Assembly: GCA_017936205.1 (NCBI GenBank)
Contig: JAGBGB010000301.1
Span: 1 to 14,994 of the forward strand
Source: Oscillospiraceae bacterium
Lineage (GTDB): Bacteria; Bacillota; Clostridia; Oscillospirales; Oscillospiraceae
Direction of reading: 5' to 3'
Length of the DNA: 14,994 nt
Shown: in pieces, positions 1-14,994 of the stretch
Position numbering within the stretch: position 1 is the stretch's first letter
How the letters are laid out: each line of letters starts with the position of its first letter
The notes under the pieces: generated by a model
What the model was told of the DNA's origin: nothing
The model's database searches: none
Seen by the model: the letters and a program-made list of their open reading frames with translations, nothing else
Translations under genes and position numbers: made by a program

Positions 1-144
1 ATCCCATCCCATGAATGCATAGTGATAGGCAGCGTCATATGCCTTAGTGGGAGCCTTGCCGCTGTATATCGCCATTTCACCCTGAGGAACAGTTTGCTTC
101 TGGAGGATTGTTCCATTCTCATCCTGGAAGGTAACAGTGAATCT
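1..144 (-). other. Listeria-Bacteroides (Flg_new/InlB B-repeat) type domain, partial
   Basis: Residues 1317-1364 of the PL8 protein read RFTVTFQDENGTILQKQTV... and end in YAFMGWD. This fits the YTVTFxDxDG...TxTVxxG...YxFxGWD pattern of this small cell-surface repeat. It is cut by the window edge. The usual role is as a spacer or surface-associated module; it has no catalytic function. Confidence 0.7.
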
Positions 145-3100
145 GGGCTCAGGCATATCGGCTTCCGGTCCCATGTAGATATAATCCACAGTGATCTTGG
201 CGATGGAGCCTTCCTGCTTAGCTTTGGTATATTGGAATCGGATGCCCAAAGACTTGACATAGTCCAAGGCGCGGTAGGCATCGCTTATGGGCATATATAC
301 CGTCTGATACTCCCCATCCTTAATGGTAAAGGGAACGGAATTGGTATAATCGTTTACGGTAATGTGATCGTTTTCTACGATGGAGACCAGCTGCAGATTA
401 GGGGTCTTTCCACTTTGAGCCACAAGTCCCTCGGTTTTGAATCGAACTGCAAGGATCTCCGCATTGGCAGGATCATAAGACAGAGCGTGGCGGTTTGTGT
501 TTCCCTGCCATCCGTATTTGCCGGAGGTGCCGGAGGTTGCCAGATAGGCTCCGTAATGCTCACTGCTTCCCAAGGTACCGTAGTAGTCGCAGGAGGTATA
601 CAGGCTCAGGGTCCCGTCCTCATTGTTCACGGTGAATATATTGCCGGCCTGGTCGGTACAGGCGGTAGCCCATGCAGGATTATCCTGACGATCATAGTCG
701 TGTCCACCGTAAGCCCCCTCCTGGAAGCGGTCGTTACTTCCGTCGTTGCTGAAGTCGAAGAGCAGTGCTTCGGTCTTAGGCCCGATATAGATATAATCTA
801 TGGTAGCTGTTCCTCCCTGGAGATAGCCGAAGTTGAAGCACACGCCCTTGAGCTTATTGAAGGTAGAGATCTTCTTGGAGCCCAGATTCATGGTCAGTGT
901 CACATACTGCCCCTCTAAGCTCCCTCCGTCTAAGCAGGCTGTATCAATGGCTAACTTAATGGACTCACGATCCGGATTGGAGGTGCTGTTGCTCCAATAC
1001 TGGGCACCGTCTACCAGATAATACAGGTAGACTCCGGGATCATAGTCACCGTTCTTCTTGACATTGTCCAGCTTGAGCCGCACTTGGAAGATCTCAGCCT
1101 TACTTGGGGCGAAGCTTAAGAAATTTGCTTTAGTCGTATCCGATGCGAAGGCATAATTGGCAGTAGAATCGGAGGGCTGGATCATGGTAGTATTCACGCC
1201 GCTCCGAGTGGTCAGAGGCACCGTCATAAATCCGTCGGAGATGGTCAGACTCTCATCCATGTGAGCCGTTGCCCACAGCCCTGCATCGGCATAGTTCTTG
1301 TAGCCGTAGACCGTGCTCTTATACTTGCCTGCGGTCTTGGTATTGAAGTCGAACATGAGCTGGTCGAAGGTCTGAGGCACGAATTCTGCCTCGAAGGTCC
1401 GACCTCTGGAGCCGCTGAAGTTGATCTTTAGACTGATCTTAGATGTTCCGCTGAGGGTGATCTTAGAATCAGCACGGGTGGTACGGAGGCTGCGGTTAAT
1501 GGTAATGGTACCGGTAGAGAGCTTCTGAGTGGGATCGCTGGCAGCGAGGAGGTACTTGCCGTCCTTCTCCCGGACCATGACGATCATGGGCTTATCTACG
1601 GTAATGTCACCGTAAGTCCCTGCCTTCCAGAAGACCATGGCGGTAATGCCCAGCTTCTTCTCCTTCACCACATGGAGGGAGGTAGTAGCCTTCACAATTT
1701 CCACATCGGGAGACTGGGTATATGCCTTGGTCTCTTCCACATTCTTCTCAGGAAGCATGACATAACTGTACTGTCCGTTTACGGGTTTGCTGCCGTGGTC
1801 CAGCCACAGCTCAAGGAAGCTGTACGCCCCGTTCTTTACTGTAGCATCCAGGCTGTACTTGTTCCAATCATCGTTGGTATCGTCTCCATCATCCGTAGCC
1901 TGACGGAAGGCTTTATTCACATAGACCTGTCCGCCGGAGGGGAAGTAGTAGCCCCCGAAGCTCTCTGCATGGACCCACTTGGGATTCGTAAAGCTCTTGG
2001 GAGAAGAAAAGCTGCTGACCTTCTCCAGCATGACACCGTCTACCTGGATATCTTCCGTGCCGTAGGTTGTCACTCCGTCTACCTTGCTGTTCTCGAAGAG
2101 GGCACGGTTGTCCACATAGGTGTGGACATTGTTGGTACGGGTGGTGAAGTCAATGTCCGTACCTACGCATACGATCTCATCATCAAACATGAAGTAGGAT
2201 TTTTTTGCTGTGAGATCAGAGGCAAGAACCTGCTTCTTCTTATTTAATTCCAGGTTCGGATCGAATTTGGCACGCTCCATCAGAGATACCTCTGACTTAG
2301 ACTCCGCCGAGGACCAGCTGTATGCCTCGAAGTCCATTGCAGCGGTGACGAAGCTCCCTGCCATCTCCACACCGCCGACGAAGGTAGCTGCATCCACGCC
2401 GTCCTTGTTCTTTTCCAGTGTCCAGCTTTCCGTATTGGTGGAGTAGTTATAGCTATAGGTCGTGCCGGGTAAATACGCCTTTTTGTTGCTCCATGGTTTC
2501 CGAAGCGTGCTGTCCTCCTCCGTGGTGCCGGGCACTCGGTAGAGATTGGCATACCGAGTATAGAGCTCCCCGAACTGATCCGTCTTATAGGTGGTCTCAT
2601 CGTTATAAACATACAGTGCTCCGTCCCCACCGAACCAACCGTAACGGTTACAGCCGTTAATGCTCTCAGGGATGGCGATGCGGCTGGAGCTCATGGACAG
2701 TGCCACGGAATACCCCTCGTTCTGCTGTACTGCACGGTCACTACGGAAGCGTACCGCACCGTAGATCCTTTCATCCAGAGGAATGTTCTGATCTACCAGA
2801 ATGTCCTTCAGTGTTTGGGCAATATTCACATCACCCATAGCCTTAGCATAATAGGCATAGGCCTTCTCCGTCTCCTCCGGTGTATCCTGCAGGAGAGCGG
2901 AACGGACAAACTGCTTGATCTTTAGGTCAGAAGCTCCATCGAAAGCTCCCACCAATAACAAAGCACTGGACATAAGATTCCTAATGTAGGAGAAGCCCAT
3001 AGCGGGGAACCGTCCCGTAAAGGGCACCATCATCATATTCTTATGCATGGTGGGCTTAAAGGTGGTCTCCAGCCAGTCAACCATACTCTCCGCATCCTCT

Positions 3101-4092
3101 AAGGCAAAGGCAGTGCCTGCCATGGCAGAGTAGGTATTCATTATACGCTCGCCCAAGACATCTGTGCCGTAGGTTCCCTCCAGACCCCAATACTTATGGC
3201 AAATATAGGAGCCGTCCTCCTTGACCCCCTCCACTGTATCATAGTGGGGCTTTAAATAGTAGGCCAGATTGGTCCTGGTCTCTTCCATAAGGGTGGTATT
3301 CTTGGTCAAGGCAGAGATCATGGTGCAGATATTCAGCCTGGTACGGCGGTTCGCCAGAGTGGTCGTATCCATTTGCCCGTCATTATTGGGACGGCATACA
3401 TTGATGAAATGCAGACAATTATCCGTGTAATACTTGGCAATGGTGCTCTCTGTAGAATTAGCATAGGGATACATTACCAGCAAAGTACGCAGGATCTCCA
3501 GGGGTCCTCCGTAGGACCAATCCCACCAGTTGTAGATAGCACTGCGATTCGCACTGGCACGCTGGGAGTCAAAGTAAGCCTTGCTATAGAAATTCTGCCC
3601 CTTCTTCAGTGCGAAGAAGATGGCATCCCTTAGCTCTTGGTTTTTATAGAGCTCCTGGGTCACCACATTACCGTTGCTGTCCTTGTAGATATACTGGGCT
3701 CCACGGGTTCCATATGCCTGAGCCAGACTGTACAGATCCTTAAACTGCAACCGAATGGTATTGCTTTTCGTCTCTGCGGTCATATTGACCGTGCCGAAGA
3801 TCCGATTGCTATTGGAGCGGTTTTTCTCTAAGTCCTGCCATTTTGTTCCGGCCTTATAGCTGATGCCGGAGGTAGACAGACCCGTAGTGCTGCTCTTAGC
3901 CCCTACGATATCCCGAATCACAGGGTCATCCCAATTCACACTGTCACTGCCACAGAGGATCCTCTTGTAATTGTTGATCAGGGTACTCCAATCAGAGGCT
4001 GTGTAAGTAGCTGCCTCTGCAAAGAATGCCTGTTGCGGCAGCAATGTCAAGAGAATTGCAACCAGAAGAATCGCCGAGATTATACGCTTCAT
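1..4092 (-). CDS. Secreted polysaccharide lyase family 8 (hyaluronate/chondroitin/xanthan lyase type), C-terminus off left edge
   Basis: The frame is open from ATG 4092 to the left edge (1364 codons, no stop). A signal peptide is clear (MKRIISAILLVAILLTLLP..., likely cut after AEA27). PL8 enzymes cleave acidic polysaccharides by beta-elimination outside the cell. All four catalytic landmarks are present: Asn188 in NWWDWSYGGP, His299 and Tyr308 (nine apart, as in streptococcal hyaluronate lyase), and Arg361 in TGRFPAMG. The central beta domain shows SMSSSRIAIPESIN (about residue 465) and KKSYFMFDDEIV (about 630); a C-terminal PL8 beta domain follows near 800-880. Two FDF-type accessory modules (909-1105, 1110-1310) and a Listeria-Bacteroides-type repeat (1317-edge, ending YAFMGWD) complete the visible part. 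An in-frame ATG at 4104 is an alternative start. I prefer 4092 because the 14205 gene has a similar leader in which the matching upstream ATG is out of frame. The substrate is unknown. The Glu that I expect in the family motif NWWDxEIG is replaced here (WSYG). Confidence 0.9.
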   Translation of the reverse strand, partial: MKRIISAILLVAILLTLLPQQAFFAEAATYTASDWSTLINNYKRILCGSDSVNWDDPVIRDIVGAKSSTTGLSTSGISYKAGTKWQDLEKNRSNSNRIFGTVNMTAETKSNTIRLQFKDLYSLAQAYGTRGAQYIYKDSNGNVVTQELYKNQELRDAIFFALKKGQNFYSKAYFDSQRASANRSAIYNWWDWSYGGPLEILRTLLVMYPYANSTESTIAKYYTDNCLHFINVCRPNNDGQMDTTTLANRRTRLNICTMISALTKNTTLMEETRTNLAYYLKPHYDTVEGVKEDGSYICHKYWGLEGTYGTDVLGERIMNTYSAMAGTAFALEDAESMVDWLETTFKPTMHKNMMMVPFTGRFPAMGFSYIRNLMSSALLLVGAFDGASDLKIKQFVRSALLQDTPEETEKAYAYYAKAMGDVNIAQTLKDILVDQNIPLDERIYGAVRFRSDRAVQQNEGYSVALSMSSSRIAIPESINGCNRYGWFGGDGALYVYNDETTYKTDQFGELYTRYANLYRVPGTTEEDSTLRKPWSNKKAYLPGTTYSYNYSTNTESWTLEKNKDGVDAATFVGGVEMAGSFVTAAMDFEAYSWSSAESKSEVSLMERAKFDPNLELNKKKQVLASDLTAKKSYFMFDDEIVCVGTDIDFTTRTNNVHTYVDNRALFENSKVDGVTTYGTEDIQVDGVMLEKVSSFSSPKSFTNPKWVHAESFGGYYFPSGGQVYVNKAFRQATDDGDDTNDDWNKYSLDATVKNGAYSFLELWLDHGSKPVNGQYSYVMLPEKNVEETKAYTQSPDVEIVKATTSLHVVKEKKLGITAMVFWKAGTYGDITVDKPMIVMVREKDGKYLLAASDPTQKLSTGTITINRSLRTTRADSKITLSGTSKISLKINFSGSRGRTFEAEFVPQTFDQLMFDFNTKTAGKYKSTVYGYKNYADAGLWATAHMDESLTISDGFMTVPLTTRSGVNTTMIQPSDSTANYAFASDTTKANFLSFAPSKAEIFQVRLKLDNVKKNGDYDPGVYLYYLVDGAQYWSNSTSNPDRESIKLAIDTACLDGGSLEGQYVTLTMNLGSKKISTFNKLKGVCFNFGYLQGGTATIDYIYIGPKTEALLFDFSNDGSNDRFQEGAYGGHDYDRQDNPAWATACTDQAGNIFTVNNEDGTLSLYTSCDYYGTLGSSEHYGAYLATSGTSGKYGWQGNTNRHALSYDPANAEILAVRFKTEGLVAQSGKTPNLQLVSIVENDHITVNDYTNSVPFTIKDGEYQTVYMPISDAYRALDYVKSLGIRFQYTKAKQEGSIAKITVDYIYMGPEADMPEPRFTVTFQDENGTILQKQTVPQGEMAIYSGKAPTKAYDAAYHYAFMGWD
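163..765 (-). repeat. Accessory module FDF/IDYIYxGPE, copy 2 of the PL8 protein
   Basis: This encodes residues 1110-1310, beginning LLFDFSND and ending VDYIYMGPE. In between are a YGxxxYD...WATA segment and an EILAVRFKTE strand. The same order of motifs occurs in the preceding copy and twice in the phosphodiester glycosidase. I infer a jelly-roll, carbohydrate-binding-like module from its all-beta appearance and its place behind catalytic domains. I cannot assign a named family. Confidence 0.7.
778..1368 (-). repeat. Accessory module FDF/IDYIYxGPE, copy 1 of the PL8 protein
   Basis: This encodes residues 909-1105, starting FDQLMFDFN directly after the lyase domain and ending IDYIYIGP. YGYKNY, LWATA and IFQVRLKLD correspond to segments in copy 2 and in both copies of the 7530-4360 protein. 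It is probably a glycan-binding or spacer module; the function is inferred from position only. Confidence 0.7.
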
Positions 4093-4132
4093 GTGCACTG
4101 TCATCCTTTCCTAAAAGCTCATTTATTGTACG

Positions 4133-4163
4133 ACAAACAAAAGGAACATTTGTGAAAGCTCCT
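4133..4163 (-). promoter_or_regulatory. Weak leader hairpin with U-rich tail upstream of the PL8 gene
   Basis: On the minus strand AGGAGC and GTTCCT can form six pairs (one G-U) around a 10-base loop. A TTTTGTTTGT tract follows. It lies in the predicted untranslated leader, about 40-70 bases before the start. It could act as an attenuator, but the stem is short and chance is likely. Confidence 0.2.
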
Positions 4164-4197
4164 CAAAAATATTCCCTTCACCCTTGTCCTTAGTATG

Positions 4198-4226
4198 AAT
4201 ATAACACATATGCCTTTTGAACACAA
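4198..4226 (-). promoter_or_regulatory. Predicted sigma-A promoter of the PL8 gene
   Basis: Read on the minus strand, TTGTGT (4226-4221) is separated by 17 bases from TATATT (4203-4198). The -10 matches five of six consensus positions and the -35 only its TTG. Initiation near 4190 would give a leader of about 100 bases. Its place between the upstream terminator and the lyase start supports an independent transcript. Confidence 0.5.
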
Positions 4227-4297
4227 TAGTTAAATCCAAATTTTTACAAAGCACTACATTTTCTTTCCAAAAAAGACATTCATGAAGTTAATGATTG

Positions 4298-4348
4298 CAA
4301 AAATCACAAACAGCCACTTTCAGTTCAATCTCCGGAAAGTGGAGTTTG
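4298..4348 (-). terminator. Rho-independent terminator after the phosphodiester glycosidase gene
   Basis: On the minus strand CAAAC-t-CCACTTTC pairs with GAAAGTGG-ct-GTTTG around a 13-base loop, and GATTTTTGC follows. The stem begins 11 bases past the stop at 4360. The T tract is short (five), so termination may be incomplete, but position and stem are good. Confidence 0.7.
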
Positions 4349-4359
4349 TTTATAAGGGT

Positions 4360-7300
4360 TTAGTTTTTAAAGTACATATTTGCACTGTCACTGTAAGCAA
4401 AGAGTGCCTTGCATAGGGTCAACAGGTCACCTGTTCTATTGTTTCCATAGGTATCGGCACTATATTGGAGCGTACAGGAAACCGGAGTCATGCCTTCATA
4501 AATTTGAACACTGACAACAGTTCTCAATTCCGCAGCTAAAAGCCCATTGAAGGAGAATGCGTAGAGATCCTTCTCGGCACTGTAGATTTCGGATTCCTTG
4601 AGTACGATTGTTTTCATCTGACCTGTTATCCCCTCATAGCTGATACGGAGCTGCAGATCACCTATCTCCCCTTCGTACGCTGTGAGCTTGAAAACGAACT
4701 TTAGTGTGACTTTGGAGGTAAGATCCAAGGCTTTCCCTACCCAAACAACAGAGGAGTCAGAAACATCATCAAGAATGTGATTTGTGTTCCCGAAGTCGGC
4801 ACGATCCATATCACTGAGATACGCTCTATGGACTTCTGTCATTTCTCCGTCAGCAAGGGCATCTGTTCTGTAGCTCTTGAAAACCTGAGCCTTAGAGCCA
4901 TAGCGCAGCAGATCCGCACAAAGGACCTTCAGGCTGTCCGGCCTTGCTGCATTGTTTAACTGAGAATAAGCGTAGGTAGCAATGCTGTACTCATCTACAG
5001 GAGAATAATAGGGCTGACCATCCTTTGTACCATAGAGGATCGAGGATATCCTGTCATTCATCTGTGTCGCAGTCATGCCGTCCAGGGTGAAGTAATAGTA
5101 GTCCTCCCTCTCCACAGGTTCTATCCGGATAACGGACTTTCCGGTCTTCTCGTTGCCCTCGTAGGTGTCAAATGTACTCTCCATATAAACCGTAGTCATG
5201 TCAAAGCCCTCTAAAAGGGCCTTAGACACCAACAGATTTACGGAAATATCACTTGCCAGGTTCAGGCTGTGATTCAGCTTCAGGGAAGCATCCTCCACAG
5301 GCTCTTTATGTTCCGACTCTCCGCAGATACAGAACCCCTCTATATATGTATGAGCTTCCTCTGCCGACCACAGACATTTTTCACAGCGGATCAAATGGGT
5401 ACGGCTGTCAATCACCGTATAGACATAGCTGTGGGATGCCTCAGGAGCATTACAGGCAGGGCCCACATAGATATAATCGATCGCAATGTCACCGATCGTA
5501 TTCCCCTTGATATTCTGGAAACGGAAGCCCAGACACTTGATCATATCCGCAGTCTTGAAGCCGACACTCACAGGAATGGTCAGTGTTTGGAAGGTGCCGT
5601 TGGACAAGGAATATGTCTGACGAATGTCGTTCTTATAGCTATGCATATCCTGTTGTGTATAGTAATATTCCATAACAAGGGTAGGTTTTTTCCCTGTGGG
5701 TACCATGCAGTTATCTGTCTTGAATCGAATCTGCAGAACATCGCAATTCCCAGGGGGAAAGCTGAAGGGAAAATAAGAATAGGTCGTTCGTCCCGTAAAA
5801 TGTCCGTAGGAATTGGTTGTCTTGACCCAGGGACCGTAGGTCAAATTCCCTGCTTCCTCCGAGCCACTGTAGCCGTCTGTCGCCTCTACATGGAGTAGGC
5901 CTTCTGTGTTGTCAATTATGAATGCACTGTTAGAGCTATTATACGCCGTTGCCCAGTAACCCAAGTCAGCCCTGTCAAAGTTCATAAAGCCATAAGGAAT
6001 GGTATTATATCGCTCTTTAGAGCTCCTATCGTTCGTAAAATCGAACAACAGGAAATCAGGTGTTGTCGCGCCGACCTCAGGGCCGACATAGATGTAATCA
6101 TAAGTAAACTTCACAGTGGTCTTGGCAGGATCCTCGATCAGCAGATTGTACACCTCCGGTCGGATAGCTGTAATGGCATCTGCTTCCTTAAGATTCAATT
6201 TCCCCTCTAAAACAAAATAGTCTCCAGTGGTATACTCTGCAGGGAGTGCTCCGGACCAAGCTATCGCTGTACTCTCCTCTCCGTCATCGATCGCATACAT
6301 CAGACGGAAATGGGCAGACCCATCCGTGGAGCCCTCGACCTTCATTCTGACCTTGAAATAATCGTCACCGGTAGGAACATATCTTAGCGGATGTCCTCCG
6401 GTATAGCTGGAATTGAGGGATGTGATCAAGGGATGAATATGTCGGGTCGCAGGATGTGCAGCGGTCGTGGAAAAGGACATGGTTCCTGCTGTATGATCGA
6501 ATGCAGGTGCCGTAGAATAGGTGTGGTGATAGTGCCAGCTCCCGACGTCAAAATTCTTGTCCCCATAAATATCTGCCTTGTACCTCTCCTTGGCAGCAGC
6601 ATCATTGGTAAAGTCGAAATAGAGCCGATCCGACTGAGGCTCTGTCACAAGGAACAGCACAGAAGAAACCTTCCGCTCCCCGGCTGCATCCGAAGGAGAA
6701 TTGCGGATCACCAAATCAGAGCTACCTTCTCTCTGTGTAGCAAAGAGGGAAGATCCACCACCGTCTAAGTTAATGGCATCTACACAACCCAGGGAGAACA
6801 TAAGCTCAGACATATCGTTGATGGTAACTCCGTAGGAATTGGTTTTGCCGTTAACAACGAAGGTGACAAGTGTGCCGTCTGCCTTCAGGCCAATGGCAGT
6901 ACGGGCAGAAAGCTGCTCTGCATTCTGCTTGATCTGCTTTCCGTCCCGAACAAGCCACTGTCTTCCGGCAACGGCCTCAAGAACATCACTGTGATCATCG
7001 GTATAGGTACGGAAGGCATAGCTTCCGTCCTTCAAAATAGCAAAGTAGATCTTCGCATTGCTGTCAGAAGGGTGGATCACATTCCCTTCTACCTTAATGA
7101 GACCCATAGGCTCCCCACTGTCAAAGGCAAAGTTCCCGTTCATCGCAAAGATCACATTGCGAGAGGTTGCTTTCTCGTAAGCAGCGGCTTGGTCAGTAGG
7201 TCTGGTGAAGGAATAGCTCAAATCGCTTGCCGCCGCAGATCGGGTAGCTTTAGAGCTTCCTTCCGTAAAGTATTTGCTGTAGGACACCTTCAGCCTCGCC

Positions 7301-7530
7301 TTAGCAGTAGGTGCCACCTGAAGCATGAACCCCTGATGCCCACCGCTCATTGCAACAGCCGATTCCGTTACGCCGGACATCAAGGTCGCATCCGTTTTAG
7401 AAAGAACCGTACTTTCGATCTTTTCCACACTGTCCCCTGTGTGATAGGCTTCAACACAAGACAGACATAAGTTCATGAAAAAAAGAACTGTAACTACTGC
7501 GATACCGAACCTTCTCATAATATTGTTCAT
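4360..7530 (-). CDS. Secreted phosphodiester glycosidase (NAGPA family) with accessory modules
   Basis: The 1056-residue protein begins at ATG 7530. The frame is open to ATG 7581, but GGGAGG five bases before 7530 and a signal peptide starting there (MNNIMRRFGIAVV..., cut after VEA28) fix the start. Residues about 75-298 form the NAGPA domain, with NGNF at 131-134, SARTAIGLKADG at 209-220 and NLDGGGSSLF at 254-263. Family members hydrolyse sugar-1-phosphodiesters, as the mammalian uncovering enzyme does with GlcNAc-1-phosphate. Two FDF/YIYVGPE modules follow (301-484, 493-691), then a ribbon-like segment with CEKC (716-719) and CICG (734-737), then the shared C-terminal module (748-1056). The gene lies 72 bases after its upstream neighbour without a terminator, so an operon is likely. 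The family call is firm; the natural substrate (capsule, teichoic acid or host glycan phosphodiester) is unknown. Confidence 0.9.
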   Translation of the reverse strand: MNNIMRRFGIAVVTVLFFMNLCLSCVEAYHTGDSVEKIESTVLSKTDATLMSGVTESAVAMSGGHQGFMLQVAPTAKARLKVSYSKYFTEGSSKATRSAAASDLSYSFTRPTDQAAAYEKATSRNVIFAMNGNFAFDSGEPMGLIKVEGNVIHPSDSNAKIYFAILKDGSYAFRTYTDDHSDVLEAVAGRQWLVRDGKQIKQNAEQLSARTAIGLKADGTLVTFVVNGKTNSYGVTINDMSELMFSLGCVDAINLDGGGSSLFATQREGSSDLVIRNSPSDAAGERKVSSVLFLVTEPQSDRLYFDFTNDAAAKERYKADIYGDKNFDVGSWHYHHTYSTAPAFDHTAGTMSFSTTAAHPATRHIHPLITSLNSSYTGGHPLRYVPTGDDYFKVRMKVEGSTDGSAHFRLMYAIDDGEESTAIAWSGALPAEYTTGDYFVLEGKLNLKEADAITAIRPEVYNLLIEDPAKTTVKFTYDYIYVGPEVGATTPDFLLFDFTNDRSSKERYNTIPYGFMNFDRADLGYWATAYNSSNSAFIIDNTEGLLHVEATDGYSGSEEAGNLTYGPWVKTTNSYGHFTGRTTYSYFPFSFPPGNCDVLQIRFKTDNCMVPTGKKPTLVMEYYYTQQDMHSYKNDIRQTYSLSNGTFQTLTIPVSVGFKTADMIKCLGFRFQNIKGNTIGDIAIDYIYVGPACNAPEASHSYVYTVIDSRTHLIRCEKCLWSAEEAHTYIEGFCICGESEHKEPVEDASLKLNHSLNLASDISVNLLVSKALLEGFDMTTVYMESTFDTYEGNEKTGKSVIRIEPVEREDYYYFTLDGMTATQMNDRISSILYGTKDGQPYYSPVDEYSIATYAYSQLNNAARPDSLKVLCADLLRYGSKAQVFKSYRTDALADGEMTEVHRAYLSDMDRADFGNTNHILDDVSDSSVVWVGKALDLTSKVTLKFVFKLTAYEGEIGDLQLRISYEGITGQMKTIVLKESEIYSAEKDLYAFSFNGLLAAELRTVVSVQIYEGMTPVSCTLQYSADTYGNNRTGDLLTLCKALFAYSDSANMYFKN
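4363..5289 (-). repeat. Shared C-terminal module, copy in the phosphodiester glycosidase
   Basis: This encodes residues 748-1056: SLKLNHSLNLASDIS at the start, DEYSIATYAYSQLNN and LLRYGSKAQVFKSY in the middle, and TPVSCTLQYSADTYGNN and LCKALFAYSDSA at the end. It is clearly homologous to 7606-8538 and 14625-14994 but is the most diverged of the three. I recall similar unnamed C-terminal modules in Clostridia exported proteins; the function is not known to me. Confidence 0.85.
5458..6054 (-). repeat. Accessory module FDF/IDYIYxGPE, copy 2 of the phosphodiester glycosidase
   Basis: This encodes residues 493-691 from DFLLFDFTND to IDYIYVGP. The YGFMNFD, YWATAYN and VLQIRFKTDN segments match the PL8 copies closely in order and spacing. 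It is inferred to be a non-catalytic binding or spacer module. Confidence 0.75.
6079..6630 (-). repeat. Accessory module FDF/IDYIYxGPE, copy 1 of the phosphodiester glycosidase
   Basis: This encodes residues 301-484 from DRLYFDFTND to YDYIYVGPE, directly behind the catalytic domain. YGDKNFD and YFKVRMKVEG match the motif order of the other three copies; the central part is more diverged. Confidence 0.7.
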
Positions 7531-7541
7531 AATAACCTCCC
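7531..7541 (-). promoter_or_regulatory. Ribosome binding site that fixes the phosphodiester glycosidase start
   Basis: GGGAGG (7541-7536) is followed by TTATT and ATG at 7530. It is the strongest Shine-Dalgarno site in the window. It rules against the upstream in-frame ATG at 7581, which would place 17 charged residues before the signal peptide. Confidence 0.9.
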
Positions 7542-7602
7542 GGATTCGTTCAAGGAAGCAGATTGCTTTGCTTTGCCGCAATCACTGTTAGGCTCCCTCG
7601 TT

Positions 7603-13600: not shown

Positions 13601-14205
13601 ATAACGCCTTGCAAGGTCTTGTTGCTTACATGAACAATAAGCAAATAATTGCCGTCCGGTTCCCTTTCCATGGCGATGGTCCACTGCTGTCCCTTTAAGC
13701 CTGCAGAAGTCAAAGCCCCGTCCTGCAGGATGGCAGTTCCGGTTTCAACCAAGGATGAGCCGTCTTTCTGTCCTATGTATATCTTCCCGTTCTTCGTATC
13801 GAAAATCAGACCAAAATCGAAGCGGTCATACTCCCCGTCCCCAAAGGAAATGGCGAATCTTCCATTTGCACTTGGGGCATTATTTTCATAAGAACTGAAT
13901 TTCAACTGCAATCCGTTTAAATCCAGCTTCCGGGACAGCCCTTCGAAAACCGTTCCTACTGCCTTTGTGAACTGAAATTCCAGGCCCGTCCCCTTTTCCT
14001 TCACCGACAGATAGGGAGCCCAGTCGTTTGCTGTCTTCTTAATACTGCTGCGTCCGGCACGGAGGGTTGTGTCGGCGAGACTCGGTGTGTTCCACCCCTC
14101 CTCATCCAAGAGGATCTGCTCCTCTGCCATGGGCTCTGCTGCCACAAAGCCGGTAAACAGTCCGGTCAGAATCGAAAGAATTAAAAACGCTGTAATGACT
14201 CTCAT
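7603..14205 (-). CDS. Giant secreted GH13-like hydrolase with SGNH/DUF4886-type esterase domain
   Basis: The protein has 2200 residues with a signal peptide (cut near VAA23). Order: two beta modules (41-240, 243-454); a GH13-like barrel (461-940); two more beta modules (947-1160, 1163-1352); an SGNH domain like DUF4886 (1364-1620); a beta region (1625-1760); zinc-ribbon-like repeats with CPNC, CSLC, CKNC and CICG (1766-1883); the shared C-terminal module (1890-2200). GH13 evidence: the likely nucleophile Asp645 in GILYDCEP, Glu675 in IGES and SNHD at 754-757. The usual region-I DxxxNH is NAITW, and the Arg before the nucleophile is Leu643, so activity may differ from amylase. SGNH evidence: GNSYT with Ser1372 and DGYH with Asp1563 and His1566. 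The protein probably attacks an acylated extracellular glycan. The start has an AAGGGA site about ten bases upstream. The phosphodiester glycosidase gene follows. Confidence 0.88.
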   Translation of the reverse strand: MRVITAFLILSILTGLFTGFVAAEPMAEEQILLDEEGWNTPSLADTTLRAGRSSIKKTANDWAPYLSVKEKGTGLEFQFTKAVGTVFEGLSRKLDLNGLQLKFSSYENNAPSANGRFAISFGDGEYDRFDFGLIFDTKNGKIYIGQKDGSSLVETGTAILQDGALTSAGLKGQQWTIAMEREPDGNYLLIVHVSNKTLQGVIPRGLIENASFDPANCCMAIMAVKNLPSFSLTLEGWKQTPVPQILTEADTLLRGTGNYADTLNSWSKWLRVAEGAEGGLHYDFTAAAHSVTEGLVIPVSLDALRFHFSNLHTTDAAKLGRLCLTFGTGMMSRSSFGLIFEFGSGKIYASNAEVSNGTVSPGRVVSVGTPLFSSSVFQYENMEGKDWTVDISRQSDGDYEVAIEIDGRRHCATIGASVVKHDSAFRPEHCYAYLMSAQANTTLSIDLLALTRKAVPTCIDNSTLMDPYVPSTEVSVDADGTPTWLSSAAIMEVNIPRATKEGTLDGAVAVLDHVQEMGVNCIWITSVGEPGTKNDGTAGNHYVNLGLQSIDPAITGTEDYEQGWQIFADFVAEAHKRNIYVIFNAITWGTTTDSPIYQAHPDWYTGKDAWGGKAWDWSNEALISWYTETLLDIVKKTDIDGILYDCEPQYAKEAVCARFRKAIQDSGRNLVYIGESANDRSGAYDMEQYGVMNYKGYDKTSTAIGEHQKDDKEFFIDEGFNIVDAVKNGTISGTIEDQKNGTGGTHKYYTYAFSNHDSYYFSFKNNLLDIAYQGIFSSYIPIWYLGDEFNSTPSGIRLYFDATKWCSLASEANAAFYEEVKQMLRIRREYGYVFDQAAQNHRDTNICKVDTTGALDLQAYARYADNTGILIVGNHNTEGNTVTTTISVPFEGMNLSKFDRFVLTDLLSGEVLGRGSKHELTQFTVTLPYDKLGIYAIVGAGTANEGLCVAKAEHALLRNGTAHQVNTANVWSKYVTVEEAPLGNGLHYSFTSAVTTTGEGIRVPVSLEDLYLQIDNLSGYINNGTASDPSKLALSFGPGGYERNSFGIVFDFANGALYAGRQTVGATDRLAIDGTPIIKDERLKASSLEGKPWGIQFTRSSDAGYCVNLMIDSDVLTAAIDSSYILQTDTFDPRSCCFYFTASGANPTLSFDLVGWRSSVEPMTYFARDDIYKVRSKIALSEDAFDHGLNVDFHGASPLTGVQLRKTVSLDGLTLYFDDLTNYRNYATANGSTKYAVSFTSEGAQDTAFGFVFDLQHGKVSLCLNGYLGRQLFSDSNLTYKHFRDVQWSMTLARNQQGTLTVTIALPDGTYSADITNEELAAARDFYPENCRLNVMAWEGPLEMSLRLVAYHEHSWDVDGDGVLEILAIGNSYTTDALWYAWQSARDLGVEKVALGNLYIANCDMQKHAANAANDSPAYLYYFNDSGTWETTSDYRISSALTDRSWDYVVLQEGHTVSGLESSYNENLSYLIDYVKGKLTATDNRNSNASTKLAWHMTWAYQQDCTHSAFKSYNNDQMTMYNGILSATKNKICTNDAFDIMIPSGTAVQNARSSLFGDTLTRDGYHMSTYVGRYLTTLMFLKSTAKLTVDHISYMPGDMTPEEKLIVIEAVKNAYEVPFAVTPSLLTGEAPASGYTQLSLGITKCAFWNPTDRASYDRPITHLSNSKNYCATARFTREELPVGSVILLAEGWKYRPDGWDTNHLQSVPRNPVTQAPYIIVTPEWWGNDTIRGFNIGKADGSSMEEIGEEEVCAAFRIYVPTQTRIHSHLSETKVPTCTENGLNVFTCPNCGDSYTKEVAAHGHIDVIDEAAAPTCTETGLTEGSHCSLCGQVSVPQQLIPATGHSYIYAKLNALTHSVTCKNCDYSVEASHSYEDGFCICGEPEVKEAVEDSSLKLNHSLNLASDISINLLIPKTLLEGFDMDTVYVESVIDTYVGNGKTGTTTIRIDPVEREYYYYFTLDGLTAVQMNDKISSVLYGTKNGQPYCSPVDEYSIASYAYSQLNNPGRPEALKILCADLLRYGAKAQIFKSYRTDALADANMTAAHRAYLSDIGAVTFGNTNKVLNDVDNATITWAGKALDLESKVALKFVFDPVNYKSDLSKLSLKVSYTDIHGTPKTLTLETPELYNPDRMLYAFTLDALLAAELRTVVSVQIFVGSTPVSCTLQYSADTYGNNKEGALLDLCKALFAYSDSAKSYFIG
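7606..8538 (-). repeat. Shared C-terminal module, copy in the 2200-residue protein
   Basis: This encodes residues 1890-2200, from EDSSLKLNHSLNLASDIS to FAYSDSAKSYFIG. Over the last 123 residues I count nine differences from the gene at the right edge. Over about 160 aligned bases nearest the stop I count about 19 differences by eye, many of them silent. Confidence 0.88.
10150..10719 (-). repeat. Internal beta module, copy 4 of the 2200-residue protein
   Basis: This encodes residues 1163-1352. It keeps the module's landmarks VSLDGLTLYFDDL, AFGFVFDLQHGKV, WSMTLAR, FYPENCRLNV and MSLRLVAY. It is the most diverged copy and leads straight into the esterase domain. Confidence 0.75.
10726..11367 (-). 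repeat. Internal beta module, copy 3 of the 2200-residue protein
   Basis: This encodes residues 947-1160, just after the GH13-like domain. Landmarks are ALLRNGT, WSKYVTVEE, VPVSLEDLYLQIDNL, SFGIVFDFANGALYAG, FDPRSCCFYF and LSFDLVGW. It resembles copy 2 most. Confidence 0.8.
12844..13479 (-). repeat. Internal beta module, copy 2 of the 2200-residue protein
   Basis: This encodes residues 243-454. Landmarks are TLLRGTG, WSKWLRVAE, VPVSLDALRFHFSNL, SFGLIFEFGSGKIYAS, FRPEHCYAYL and LSIDLLAL. It directly precedes the GH13-like domain. The all-beta appearance and position suggest a lectin-like or carbohydrate-binding role, which is inference. Confidence 0.8.
13486..14085 (-). repeat. Internal beta module, copy 1 of the 2200-residue protein
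   Basis: This encodes residues 41-240, the first domain after the signal peptide. Landmarks are TTLRAGR, WAPYLSVKE, LDLNGLQLKFSSY, DFGLIFDTKNGKIYIG, WTIAMEREPDGNY, FDPANCCMAI and FSLTLEGW. I cannot match it to a named domain family. Confidence 0.8.
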
Positions 14206-14240
14206 GTATGGTCATTCCCTTCTGTAAAATATCTACATAT

Positions 14241-14268
14241 ATTATACATTATTTTGGGGAAATTGCAA
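14241..14268 (-). promoter_or_regulatory. Predicted sigma-A promoter of the 2200-residue protein gene
   Basis: On the minus strand TTGCAA (14268-14263), a 16-base spacer and a perfect TATAAT (14246-14241) precede the start at 14205. The transcript would begin near 14233, giving a leader of about 30 bases. It probably drives both this gene and the phosphodiester glycosidase gene. Confidence 0.7.
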
Positions 14269-14312
14269 TCTCTTCTATGGGGACTCACCATATATCCTTG
14301 TACAAACATTTA

Positions 14313-14346
14313 CCCCTTATCCGGAATCATTACGCCGGATAAGGGG
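14313..14346. other. Perfect 12-bp inverted repeat (hairpin)
   Basis: CCCCTTATCCGG (14313-14324) and CCGGATAAGGGG (14335-14346) pair perfectly around a 10-base loop. Neither side has a T tract, so a standard terminator is doubtful. It lies 45 bases upstream of the -35 box of the 14205 gene. It could be a transcript end, a processing site or a protein-binding palindrome. Confidence 0.75.
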
Positions 14347-14375
14347 CATCGTACATTGTTGACGCACTGACCGTG

Positions 14376-14469
14376 CTATAATACTGTTTCTTGATAAAAT
14401 GGTTTGAAAACCATTTTATTGCAGGATGAATATCCTGCACCGCCTATGGCGGCAAGAACAGTATTACAG
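14376..14469. repeat. Four-way-junction structured element A
   Basis: A closing stem (14376-14393 with 14453-14469) surrounds three hairpins. They are ATAAAATGGTTT with its complement (14394-14419, 12 bp), GCAGGAT/ATCCTGC (14421-14438, 7 bp) and CCGCC/GGCGG (14440-14452, 5 bp). Only bases 14420 and 14439 are unpaired at the junction. The one mismatch of the closing stem on the plus strand (A against C) becomes a G-U pair in a minus-strand RNA. The function is unknown. It could be a structured RNA or a small mobile palindromic element. Confidence 0.75.
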
Positions 14470-14470
14470 G

Positions 14471-14547
14471 TTATTTCTTGGCGGCTTTGCCGCCATGCCG
14501 CGTACCAGCGTCATAATAAAACGGTTAATCCGTTTTATTAGAAATAA
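14471..14547. repeat. Four-way-junction structured element B, inverted diverged copy of A
   Basis: The closing stem TTATTTCT (14471-14478) with AGAAATAA (14540-14547) surrounds three hairpins. They are TGGCGGC/GCCGCCA (14479-14495), a weak one at 14497-14512 with one mismatch, and AATAAAACGG/CCGTTTTATT (14515-14539). Read on the minus strand, hairpin order, spacing and junction sequence match element A read on the plus strand. The two are therefore inverted homologues that abut with a single base between them. Confidence 0.7.
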
Positions 14548-14572
14548 GTATAAGGGTAGCCTTTGTCTCACA

Positions 14573-14606
14573 GAAACCCCTCAAAGAAAGATCTCTGAGG
14601 GGTTTC
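14573..14606 (-). terminator. Terminator-like hairpin after the right-edge gene
   Basis: GAAACCCCTCA and TGAGGGGTTTC form an 11-bp perfect stem around a 12-base loop, 15 bases past the stop at 14622. The minus-strand tail is only TTTC then TGTG, so the T tract is poor. The position argues for a terminator all the same. Confidence 0.6.
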
Positions 14607-14621
14607 CGGCCTGGGTGAAAA

Positions 14622-14994
14622 TTATCCTGCAAAATAGCGTTTGGCACTATCCGAGTAGGCGAAGAGTGCCTTGCACAGGTCGAGCAATGTGCCTTCCTTA
14701 TTGTTGCCGTAGGTGTCGGCGCTGTATTGCAGGGTGCAGGATACAGGAGTGCTGTCTGCGAAGATCTGAACAGAAACCACAGTCCGAAGCTCTGCTGCCA
14801 ACAGTGCATCTAAGGTGAAAGCATAGAGCTTCCGATCCGGGTTGTAGAGCTCGGGAGTCTCTAAGGTCACGGTCTTAGCTGTGCCGTGGATGTCGGTGTA
14901 GCTGACCTTCAGGCTCAGCTTGGACAGATCGCCCTTGTAATTGACAGGATCAAAGACAAATTTCAGAGCTACCTTGGATTCCAGATCCAGAGCC
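14622..14994 (-). CDS. 3' end of a secreted-protein gene with the shared C-terminal module
   Basis: The last 123 codons are inside the window. The frame continues past the right edge from ALDLESKVALKFVFDP to the stop at 14622. No ATG start belongs here: the in-frame ATG at 14870 lies inside the module. The residues match the last 123 of the 2200-residue protein with nine differences, so the whole gene is probably another exported multidomain enzyme of this locus. Its catalytic part is outside the window and cannot be named. It is followed by a hairpin terminator and then by the structured elements. Confidence 0.88.
   Translation of the reverse strand, partial: ALDLESKVALKFVFDPVNYKGDLSKLSLKVSYTDIHGTAKTVTLETPELYNPDRKLYAFTLDALLAAELRTVVSVQIFADSTPVSCTLQYSADTYGNNKEGTLLDLCKALFAYSDSAKRYFAG

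Follow-up and report, generated by a model that had tools for sequence, protein, structure and literature searches.

A short hairpin-rich element of Oscillospiraceae, very probably an IS630-type MITE

The structured region near the right end of the window, by which we mean the whole stretch of 14,994 nucleotides of Oscillospiraceae bacterium DNA analysed here (assembly GCA_017936205.1, contig JAGBGB010000301.1), is very probably one copy of an IS630-type MITE, a non-autonomous DNA transposon. The element carries no transposase gene of its own, is shorter than 200 bp (169 bp) and is dispersed in at least 38 places. To judge from similar ends, an IS630-family DDE transposase would recognise its terminal repeat, TACTNNTTYTYNATAAAA, and move it in trans, with insertion presumably at TNA and duplication of these three bases. 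Inside the ends lie six predicted hairpins in two half-units, and each predicted closing stem contains or adjoins the terminal repeat.

The first-pass annotation had described two abutting, inverted copies of a four-way-junction element. Both junctions fold as described, and the stem sequences quoted for them are present in the window fold. The two copies, however, are halves A and B of one composite element, since the B half adjoins A in 37 of 38 places in the genome of origin.

Borders and parts of the element

The window copy has a 169-base core at 14382-14550, with TAA at 14379-14381 and 14551-14553. Its borders were drawn from 16 complete own-genome copies and 39 other spans, and with covariance model R1. 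The parts are, in the order of their positions:

14379-14381, unstranded: left target-site duplication TAA; concerted TAA/TAA, TGA/TGA and TCA/TCA in other copies
14382-14550, plus strand: whole element, MITE core of 169 bp; complete copies and covariance model R1
14382-14401, plus strand: left terminal inverted repeat TACTGTTTCTTGATAAAATG; consensus over 54 ends
14382-14393, plus strand: half-unit A closing stem, 5' arm; from the fold
14394-14419, plus strand: hairpin 1 (half-unit A); two-sided change of one pair from G-C to A-U in 14/52 copies
14420-14439, plus strand: hairpin 2 (half-unit A); two-sided changes in 8/8 pairs among 14 sequences from several genera
14440-14452, plus strand: hairpin 3 (half-unit A); from the fold
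14453-14463, plus strand: half-unit A closing stem, 3' arm, in which the terminal repeat recurs internally in inverted orientation; from the fold
14464-14470, plus strand: linker joining the half-units; from the alignment, the two own-genome subfamilies diverging here and just downstream
14471-14478, plus strand: half-unit B closing stem, 5' arm; 72.1% of cells paired
14479-14495, plus strand: hairpin 4 (half-unit B); one pair with two-sided change in 11/52 copies
14496-14513, plus strand: hairpin 5 (half-unit B), with a C-T mismatch in the window copy; 74.6% of cells paired
14515-14539, plus strand: hairpin 6 (half-unit B); two-sided change of one pair from G-C to A-U in 13/52 copies
14540-14547, plus strand: half-unit B closing stem, 3' arm; from the fold
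14531-14550, minus strand: right terminal inverted repeat, reading TACTTATTTCTAATAAAACG on the minus strand; 17/20 identity with the left end of an IS630-family IS (in genome G010)
14551-14553, unstranded: right target-site duplication TAA; borders of the window copy

In the segment 14360-14560 the predicted fold is a pair of four-way junctions, in each of which a closing stem bears three hairpins (MFE -80.1 kcal/mol, z -7.16, 0/200 shuffles as good). Over 23 spans of 148-189 bp from 20 genomes, the median fold z against mononucleotide shuffles is -9.2 and the median number of hairpins is five. In copies of some relatives, internal matches to TNATACTNNTTCT are seen in the 3' arm of the half-unit A closing stem. 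The two outermost pairs of the half-unit B closing stem are formed in just 8 to 10 of 52 copies, hairpin 5 aligns poorly between the subfamilies, and the C-T mismatch in this middle hairpin of B is absent from 49 of 51 scorable copies.

The halves had also been said to align along their length. This holds for the outer 45 bases of A and reverse-complemented B (0/1000 mononucleotide shuffles as high), where the likeness consists of the terminal repeat and the first hairpin, but not for the inner part, where similarity is not significant (84/1000 mononucleotide shuffles as high). The correspondence proposed for 'hairpin 3' belongs to this inner part, for it matches the innermost hairpin of A with that of B.

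Copies, target duplications and the candidate mobiliser

In a BLAST search of the own draft genome (G000) with half A, at least 38 places matched by 52 bases or more, a lower bound on the copy number as 40 of 51 candidates were scored. Sixteen copies are complete with both flanks. Many copies lie at contig ends, so that some places may be the two halves of one copy; such repeats break draft assemblies. The own-genome copies form two subfamilies, which differ around the linker.

Identical triplets flank 49 of 55 spans from five genomes (G000, G014, G016, G009, G013). They are TAA in 44, TGA in three and TCA in two, the last two triplets containing no TA; of the six mismatched spans, one is a nesting artefact and another a copy interrupted by a different IS. 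Where insertions are nested, both empty and filled sites are seen within the family, at TAA in locus L125 and at TTA in L074 and L120; in L120 two insertions used a single TTA of the hairpin 1 loop. From the concerted triplets and these empty and filled sites it follows that the target duplication is TNA and that the element ends are TACT...AGTA. An empty orthologous site of the window copy was not found among 16 same-genus genomes, one of which matched, with 45 apparently paralogous matches. The adjacent segment 14600-14994, which holds a minus-strand ORF (14622-14993), matches G016 45 times at 65-96% identity, and the search of 15 further genomes of the genus gave no match; by sequence it appears to belong to an extensive family of paralogous genes or to be a repeated domain.

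The terminal-repeat consensus was derived from 54 ends of 27 spans; no span was obtained from 10 of 37 loci, and four of the 27 spans, mis-called or weak-ended, count in this tally though they are absent from the 23-span fold set. Matching duplications in 26 of these 27 spans are not independent evidence, because the span rule favours equal triplets.

Smaller members carry similar marks. In G013 three near-identical 39-bp palindromes, each at a site of its own, are bounded by the terminal repeat of the family; TAA flanks two of them left and right (L145, L151), and the third has TCA/TGA (L142). Identical triplets also flank a 47-bp palindrome in G009 and a 50-bp palindrome and a 65-bp half-element in G014, which gives four solo palindromes of 39-50 bp with the same TNA on both sides. 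In G400, 24-bp perfect palindromes, TACTTTTTCTTKMAAGAAAAAGTA, were observed near IS630-family copies, flanked by TGA/TGA (L373), TGA/TTA (L376), TGA/TCA (L378) and TAA/TTA (L379); the triplets are identical in one of the four and inverted in two. A recurrent insertion context, ACCGATAA / TAAATCGG, was noted in G014 on both sides of three copies (L063, L107, L129) and on the right only of three others (L128, L139, L184), and these copies may hence have landed in another dispersed repeat.

Further copies are present in related genomes. By BLAST, 6 of 60 genomes matched, the own genome among them, one (G042) with a 23-base match only. An exact-pattern scan of named genomes gave 42 stretches, all in two Oscillospiraceae bacterium MAGs, RGIG930, which comes from dairy cattle rectum, and SIG473. 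A covariance model made from 14 sequences, with seven candidates per genome scored, matched 27 of 400 genomes sampled from the family Oscillospiraceae, in 15 of 106 genera; the model sequences themselves came from five of the 27 matched genomes (three genera). Of the best 25 loci (L255-L279), 18 yielded a span with both ends, two of them by a wrong call, and several of the remainder are partial or degenerate. Copies from other genera show the same layout with different stem sequences. In the sample of the class, the covariance search matched 0 of 390 genomes besides the own. A terminal-repeat pattern matched 21 of 400 family genomes, with two control matches.

No match was found in the phage and plasmid collections, nor in viral contigs with a narrow pattern; a wider pattern gave 14 loci in viral contigs, one of them a family member (L245) and the other 13 chance-like by eye. 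The member lies at 4886-5051 of its locus, on the viral-listed IMG/VR contig 3300010163, with flanks TAA and TAG, and could be host-derived or phage-carried.

The mobiliser is likely to be an IS630-family IS, as judged from its ends and encoded domains. G010, a genome of the same genus, holds a 1104-bp element whose ends read TACTATTTTCTAATAAAAC / TACTAAACTCTAATTAAAGC and which is flanked on either side by TAA. This element encodes an HTH ORF (HTH_33 and HTH_23) and, downstream in a different frame, a DDE_3 ORF (PF13358 1.4e-22; NF033545, IS630, 1.4e-42). The right end of the window copy matches the left end of this IS at 17 of 20 positions, whereas other window 20-mers reach at most 14/20; the left end of the window copy agrees less well with the two ends of the IS (14/20 and 10/20), and the best window 20-mer match to the IS right end is 14/20. 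The G010 IS ends show no comparable hairpin layout, so the MITE is no simple internal deletion of this IS.

A PF13358 transposase occurs in 7 of 37 element-bearing genomes, and in G010 and G400, though not in the other five, similar ends were seen next to it. It was not found in the own genome, which is 72.5% complete, or in G014 and G016; these three have the most copies of the window subfamily. In G400 a similar right end stands at 10 of 14 PF13358 loci, with a one-sided TAA, TTA or TGA outside, and a matching left end was not seen at these ten. At the G400 locus L329 a degenerate IS630 C-terminus, recognised by eye and under the profile cut-off (PF13358 E 8.4e-6), abuts the terminal repeat. 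A stretch upstream of an IS630 gene in G400 (L360 1-60, G400:C165) has a motif suggestive of a group II intron 3' end.

PF01609 transposases were rejected as partner, the eight loci inspected in four of five genomes not being bounded by element ends; one PF01609 IS (L167 1-650, G014:C27) truncates a MITE copy, at whose right end it lies. Pairs of TNATACT...AGTATNA 0.7-3.2 kb apart enclosed a large ORF in 31 spans from 1.02 Mb of loci; eight of these were judged by eye from their translations and none read as a transposase.

Taken together, the copies, duplications, nested insertions and the IS630-family IS with similar ends support one of the readings first offered, that of a palindromic element dispersed and mobilised by a transposase. 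The conditions named at the outset as refuting did not hold: relatives carry further copies, an alignment shows covariation, and Rfam has no family that matches at threshold.

Covariation, genomic setting and rival explanations

What is unusual in the element is its fold: the arrangement of hairpins is retained from genus to genus although their sequences differ. In the set of 14 sequences from several genera, two-sided change is seen in 23 of 64 pairs, compared to 12.9 in shuffles (0/500 reach this count) and 3 to 7 in slid controls, whereas further pair types number 43 against 38.8 (29/500 reach); the shuffles do not preserve the relatedness of the sequences. This cross-genus covariation, for which a check had been proposed, is strong and present in both half-units. 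A second alignment comprised 52 close copies, namely the 55 spans minus a type-2 element, the nested artefact and the IS-disrupted copy. In it 91.7% of cells are paired and 51 cells show two-sided change (19.2 in shuffles), but neither the pairs with two-sided change (5 vs 5.6) nor further pair types (26 vs 28.0) are in excess. As the two-sided pair count in the close copies is not above shuffles, the case for covariation rests on the 14-sequence set.

Gene context was assigned with a home-made gene caller for the 39 of 55 spans with sufficient flanks, a nested copy included: the neighbouring genes are convergent for 23, tandem for 10 and divergent for one, while two copies are inside an ORF call and three at an edge. 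The convergent share of those with two clear neighbours is thus 23/34, compared to 14/134 background junctions, 12/73 of those that are 40 bases or longer, and 11.4% of intergenic bases (42 loci), a background somewhat lowered by the exclusion of element-bearing junctions. The window copy itself sits between two minus-strand ORFs. Farther off, window 1-7581 carries on its minus strand polysaccharide lyase family 8 and phosphodiester glycosidase (NAGPA) genes, beside an ORF of 2200 aa. Pre-insertion sites fold about as well as controls (mean -22.3 kcal/mol over 50 sites, -21.3 over 91 controls), hence nothing here points to hairpins as targets.

Selection on the fold is plausible. It had been held that compensated change implies such selection, but this does not follow, as hairpin-templated DNA correction yields compensated changes too. 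Single copies show what read as inverted loops in hairpin 2 (L126, four bases), hairpin 5 (L184, three bases) and hairpin 6 (L179, five bases), all of them short strings. Loop inversion is a DNA event, and the inverted loops suggest that the hairpins rearrange at the DNA level. These loops and the absence of a strand bias favour the view that the compensated changes come from mutation alone, by hairpin-templated repair or template switching in replication, with no selection on the fold. Against this speak the similar multi-hairpin layout across genera, as drift and correction should lose or reshuffle hairpins too, and the unpaired intermediates seen in several stems; we consider this explanation tenable, but somewhat short of an even chance. 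The chances are about even that DNA-level hairpin correction keeps the layout jointly with selection, which would favour an insert that is compact and well tolerated close to the 3' ends of genes. The fold may instead be part of the transposition cycle, with extruded DNA hairpins needed for end pairing, replication or repair escape, and with half-units and even single hairpins as mobile modules. The solo palindromes, the 65-bp half-element, the internal terminal-repeat copy and the cross-genus layout with stem turnover fit such a role, while the 39-bp palindrome with TCA/TGA and the identical triplets in only one of four 24-bp palindromes of G400 fit it poorly, and we regard it as rather unlikely. 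If true, it would mean structure-dependent IS630-type DNA transposons with a 3-bp TNA target, built of independently mobile palindromic modules.

A mobile or dispersed structured RNA, the fold being selected through a working transcript (a small RNA, or a terminator or stabiliser at mRNA 3' ends), would account for the covariation across genera, the strong fold (z -7.16 in the window, median -9.2 over 23 spans) and the enrichment between convergent genes (23/34 vs 11.4% of background intergenic bases). The strands give it no support: distinct pair events number 14 G-U and 18 A-C, and of 63 elements, mostly close relatives, the fold is better on the plus strand in 37 and on the minus strand in 25. 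Insertions are readable from either side, however, so that transcripts may have a role despite the missing bias. In Rfam no family reached its gathering score in the window, where matches are sub-threshold only (E 0.21 to 1.6); at E up to 5 four such matches cover 14505-14610, chiefly on a neighbouring hairpin. A consensus scan of 14200-14640 gave no terminator-like site, and the convergent bias of the pneumococcal elements BOX, RUP and SPRITE has been read as tolerance in the portion of the source available (PMC3049150). We consider an RNA role decidedly unlikely for this element. That a Y1 (HUH) transposase, such as a RAYT or IS200/IS605 TnpA, moves it as a folded single strand of DNA, in the manner of REPINs, is extremely unlikely. 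The DNA is rich in hairpins, and Y1 matches, some RAYT-like by sequence, occur in 13 of 20 element-bearing and 5 of 15 element-free genomes tested. Yet the 3-bp TNA duplications are true ones, and target-site duplication is not expected of IS200/IS605-type insertion. Y1/RAYT proteins were also rejected as partner because in 21 Y1 loci loosely matched ends never framed the Y1 gene as an element, the loose 7-base end pattern giving chance-like pairs in two loci only (L291 and L294), and the RAYT-like gene inspected in the own genome is flanked by GTAG-type palindromes, not by the element.

This own-genome RAYT-like Y1 protein (L304 1210-2050, G000:C184) lies between GTAGGGGCGATG palindromes, an arrangement of the REP/REPIN kind; a second weak Y1 match lies at a distance of about 3.9 kb. 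RAYT-like ORFs of three other genomes (L305, L307 and L308, in G014, G016 and G011) contain in-frame GADDSVRP-type repeats, which may be a GTAG-type palindrome translated inside its own transposase gene.

Comparison with described elements

REP/REPIN sequences are dispersed palindromes in composite inverted arrangements, and the IS630-type MITE described here resembles them in both respects. It differs by the lack of a GTAG foot, by its 3-bp duplications and in that no RAYT was found beside it. The comparisons that follow hold for those portions of the cited papers that were available. Like the CIR elements of Caulobacter and Brucella, the element has two arms and a linker, but each CIR arm is a long inverted repeat and IS630-linked terminal repeats are not described for CIR there (PMC2229807). 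Correia/NEMIS elements of Neisseria are likewise small MITEs, with TA termini and stem-loop transcripts; their stem-loop arises by pairing of the two ends, whereas the element has two multi-hairpin half-units (PMC2229807). BOX of pneumococcus is also modular and structured, and its mobilisation by a resident IS has been proposed; its modules are boxA-boxB-boxC and the proposed partner is ISSpn2 (PMC3049150).

The nearest described case in this material is RUP (PMC2229807), a 107-bp MITE with TA-containing targets that is linked to IS630-Spn1 (PMC2229807, PMC3049150). Both RUP and the element are non-coding, shorter than 200 bp and tightly folded, with IS630-like terminal repeats and an excess between convergent genes (PMC2229807, PMC3049150). 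Unlike RUP, the element measures 148-189 bp in the 23 full spans, duplicates TNA, is built of two multi-hairpin half-units and has relatives in several genera.

In the open-licence PMC literature searched, the element was not found by title or abstract opening, nor was any test of a MITE fold by cross-genus covariation; it is commonly noted that MITE transcripts fold stably (PMC10969869, as far as its available text goes). According to the available part of PMC8533490, IS630/Tc1/mariner elements duplicate TA, and most Sailor elements TATA. In place of this classical TA the element duplicates TNA, and the IS630-type partner departs from the TA rule as well (TAA/TAA in G010; TAA, TTA or TGA in G400). 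Within the literature covered, the element thus differs from described IS630-type MITEs by its TNA duplication and by a modular fold conserved across genera, and the TNA duplication would extend the described target behaviour of IS630-type transposases.
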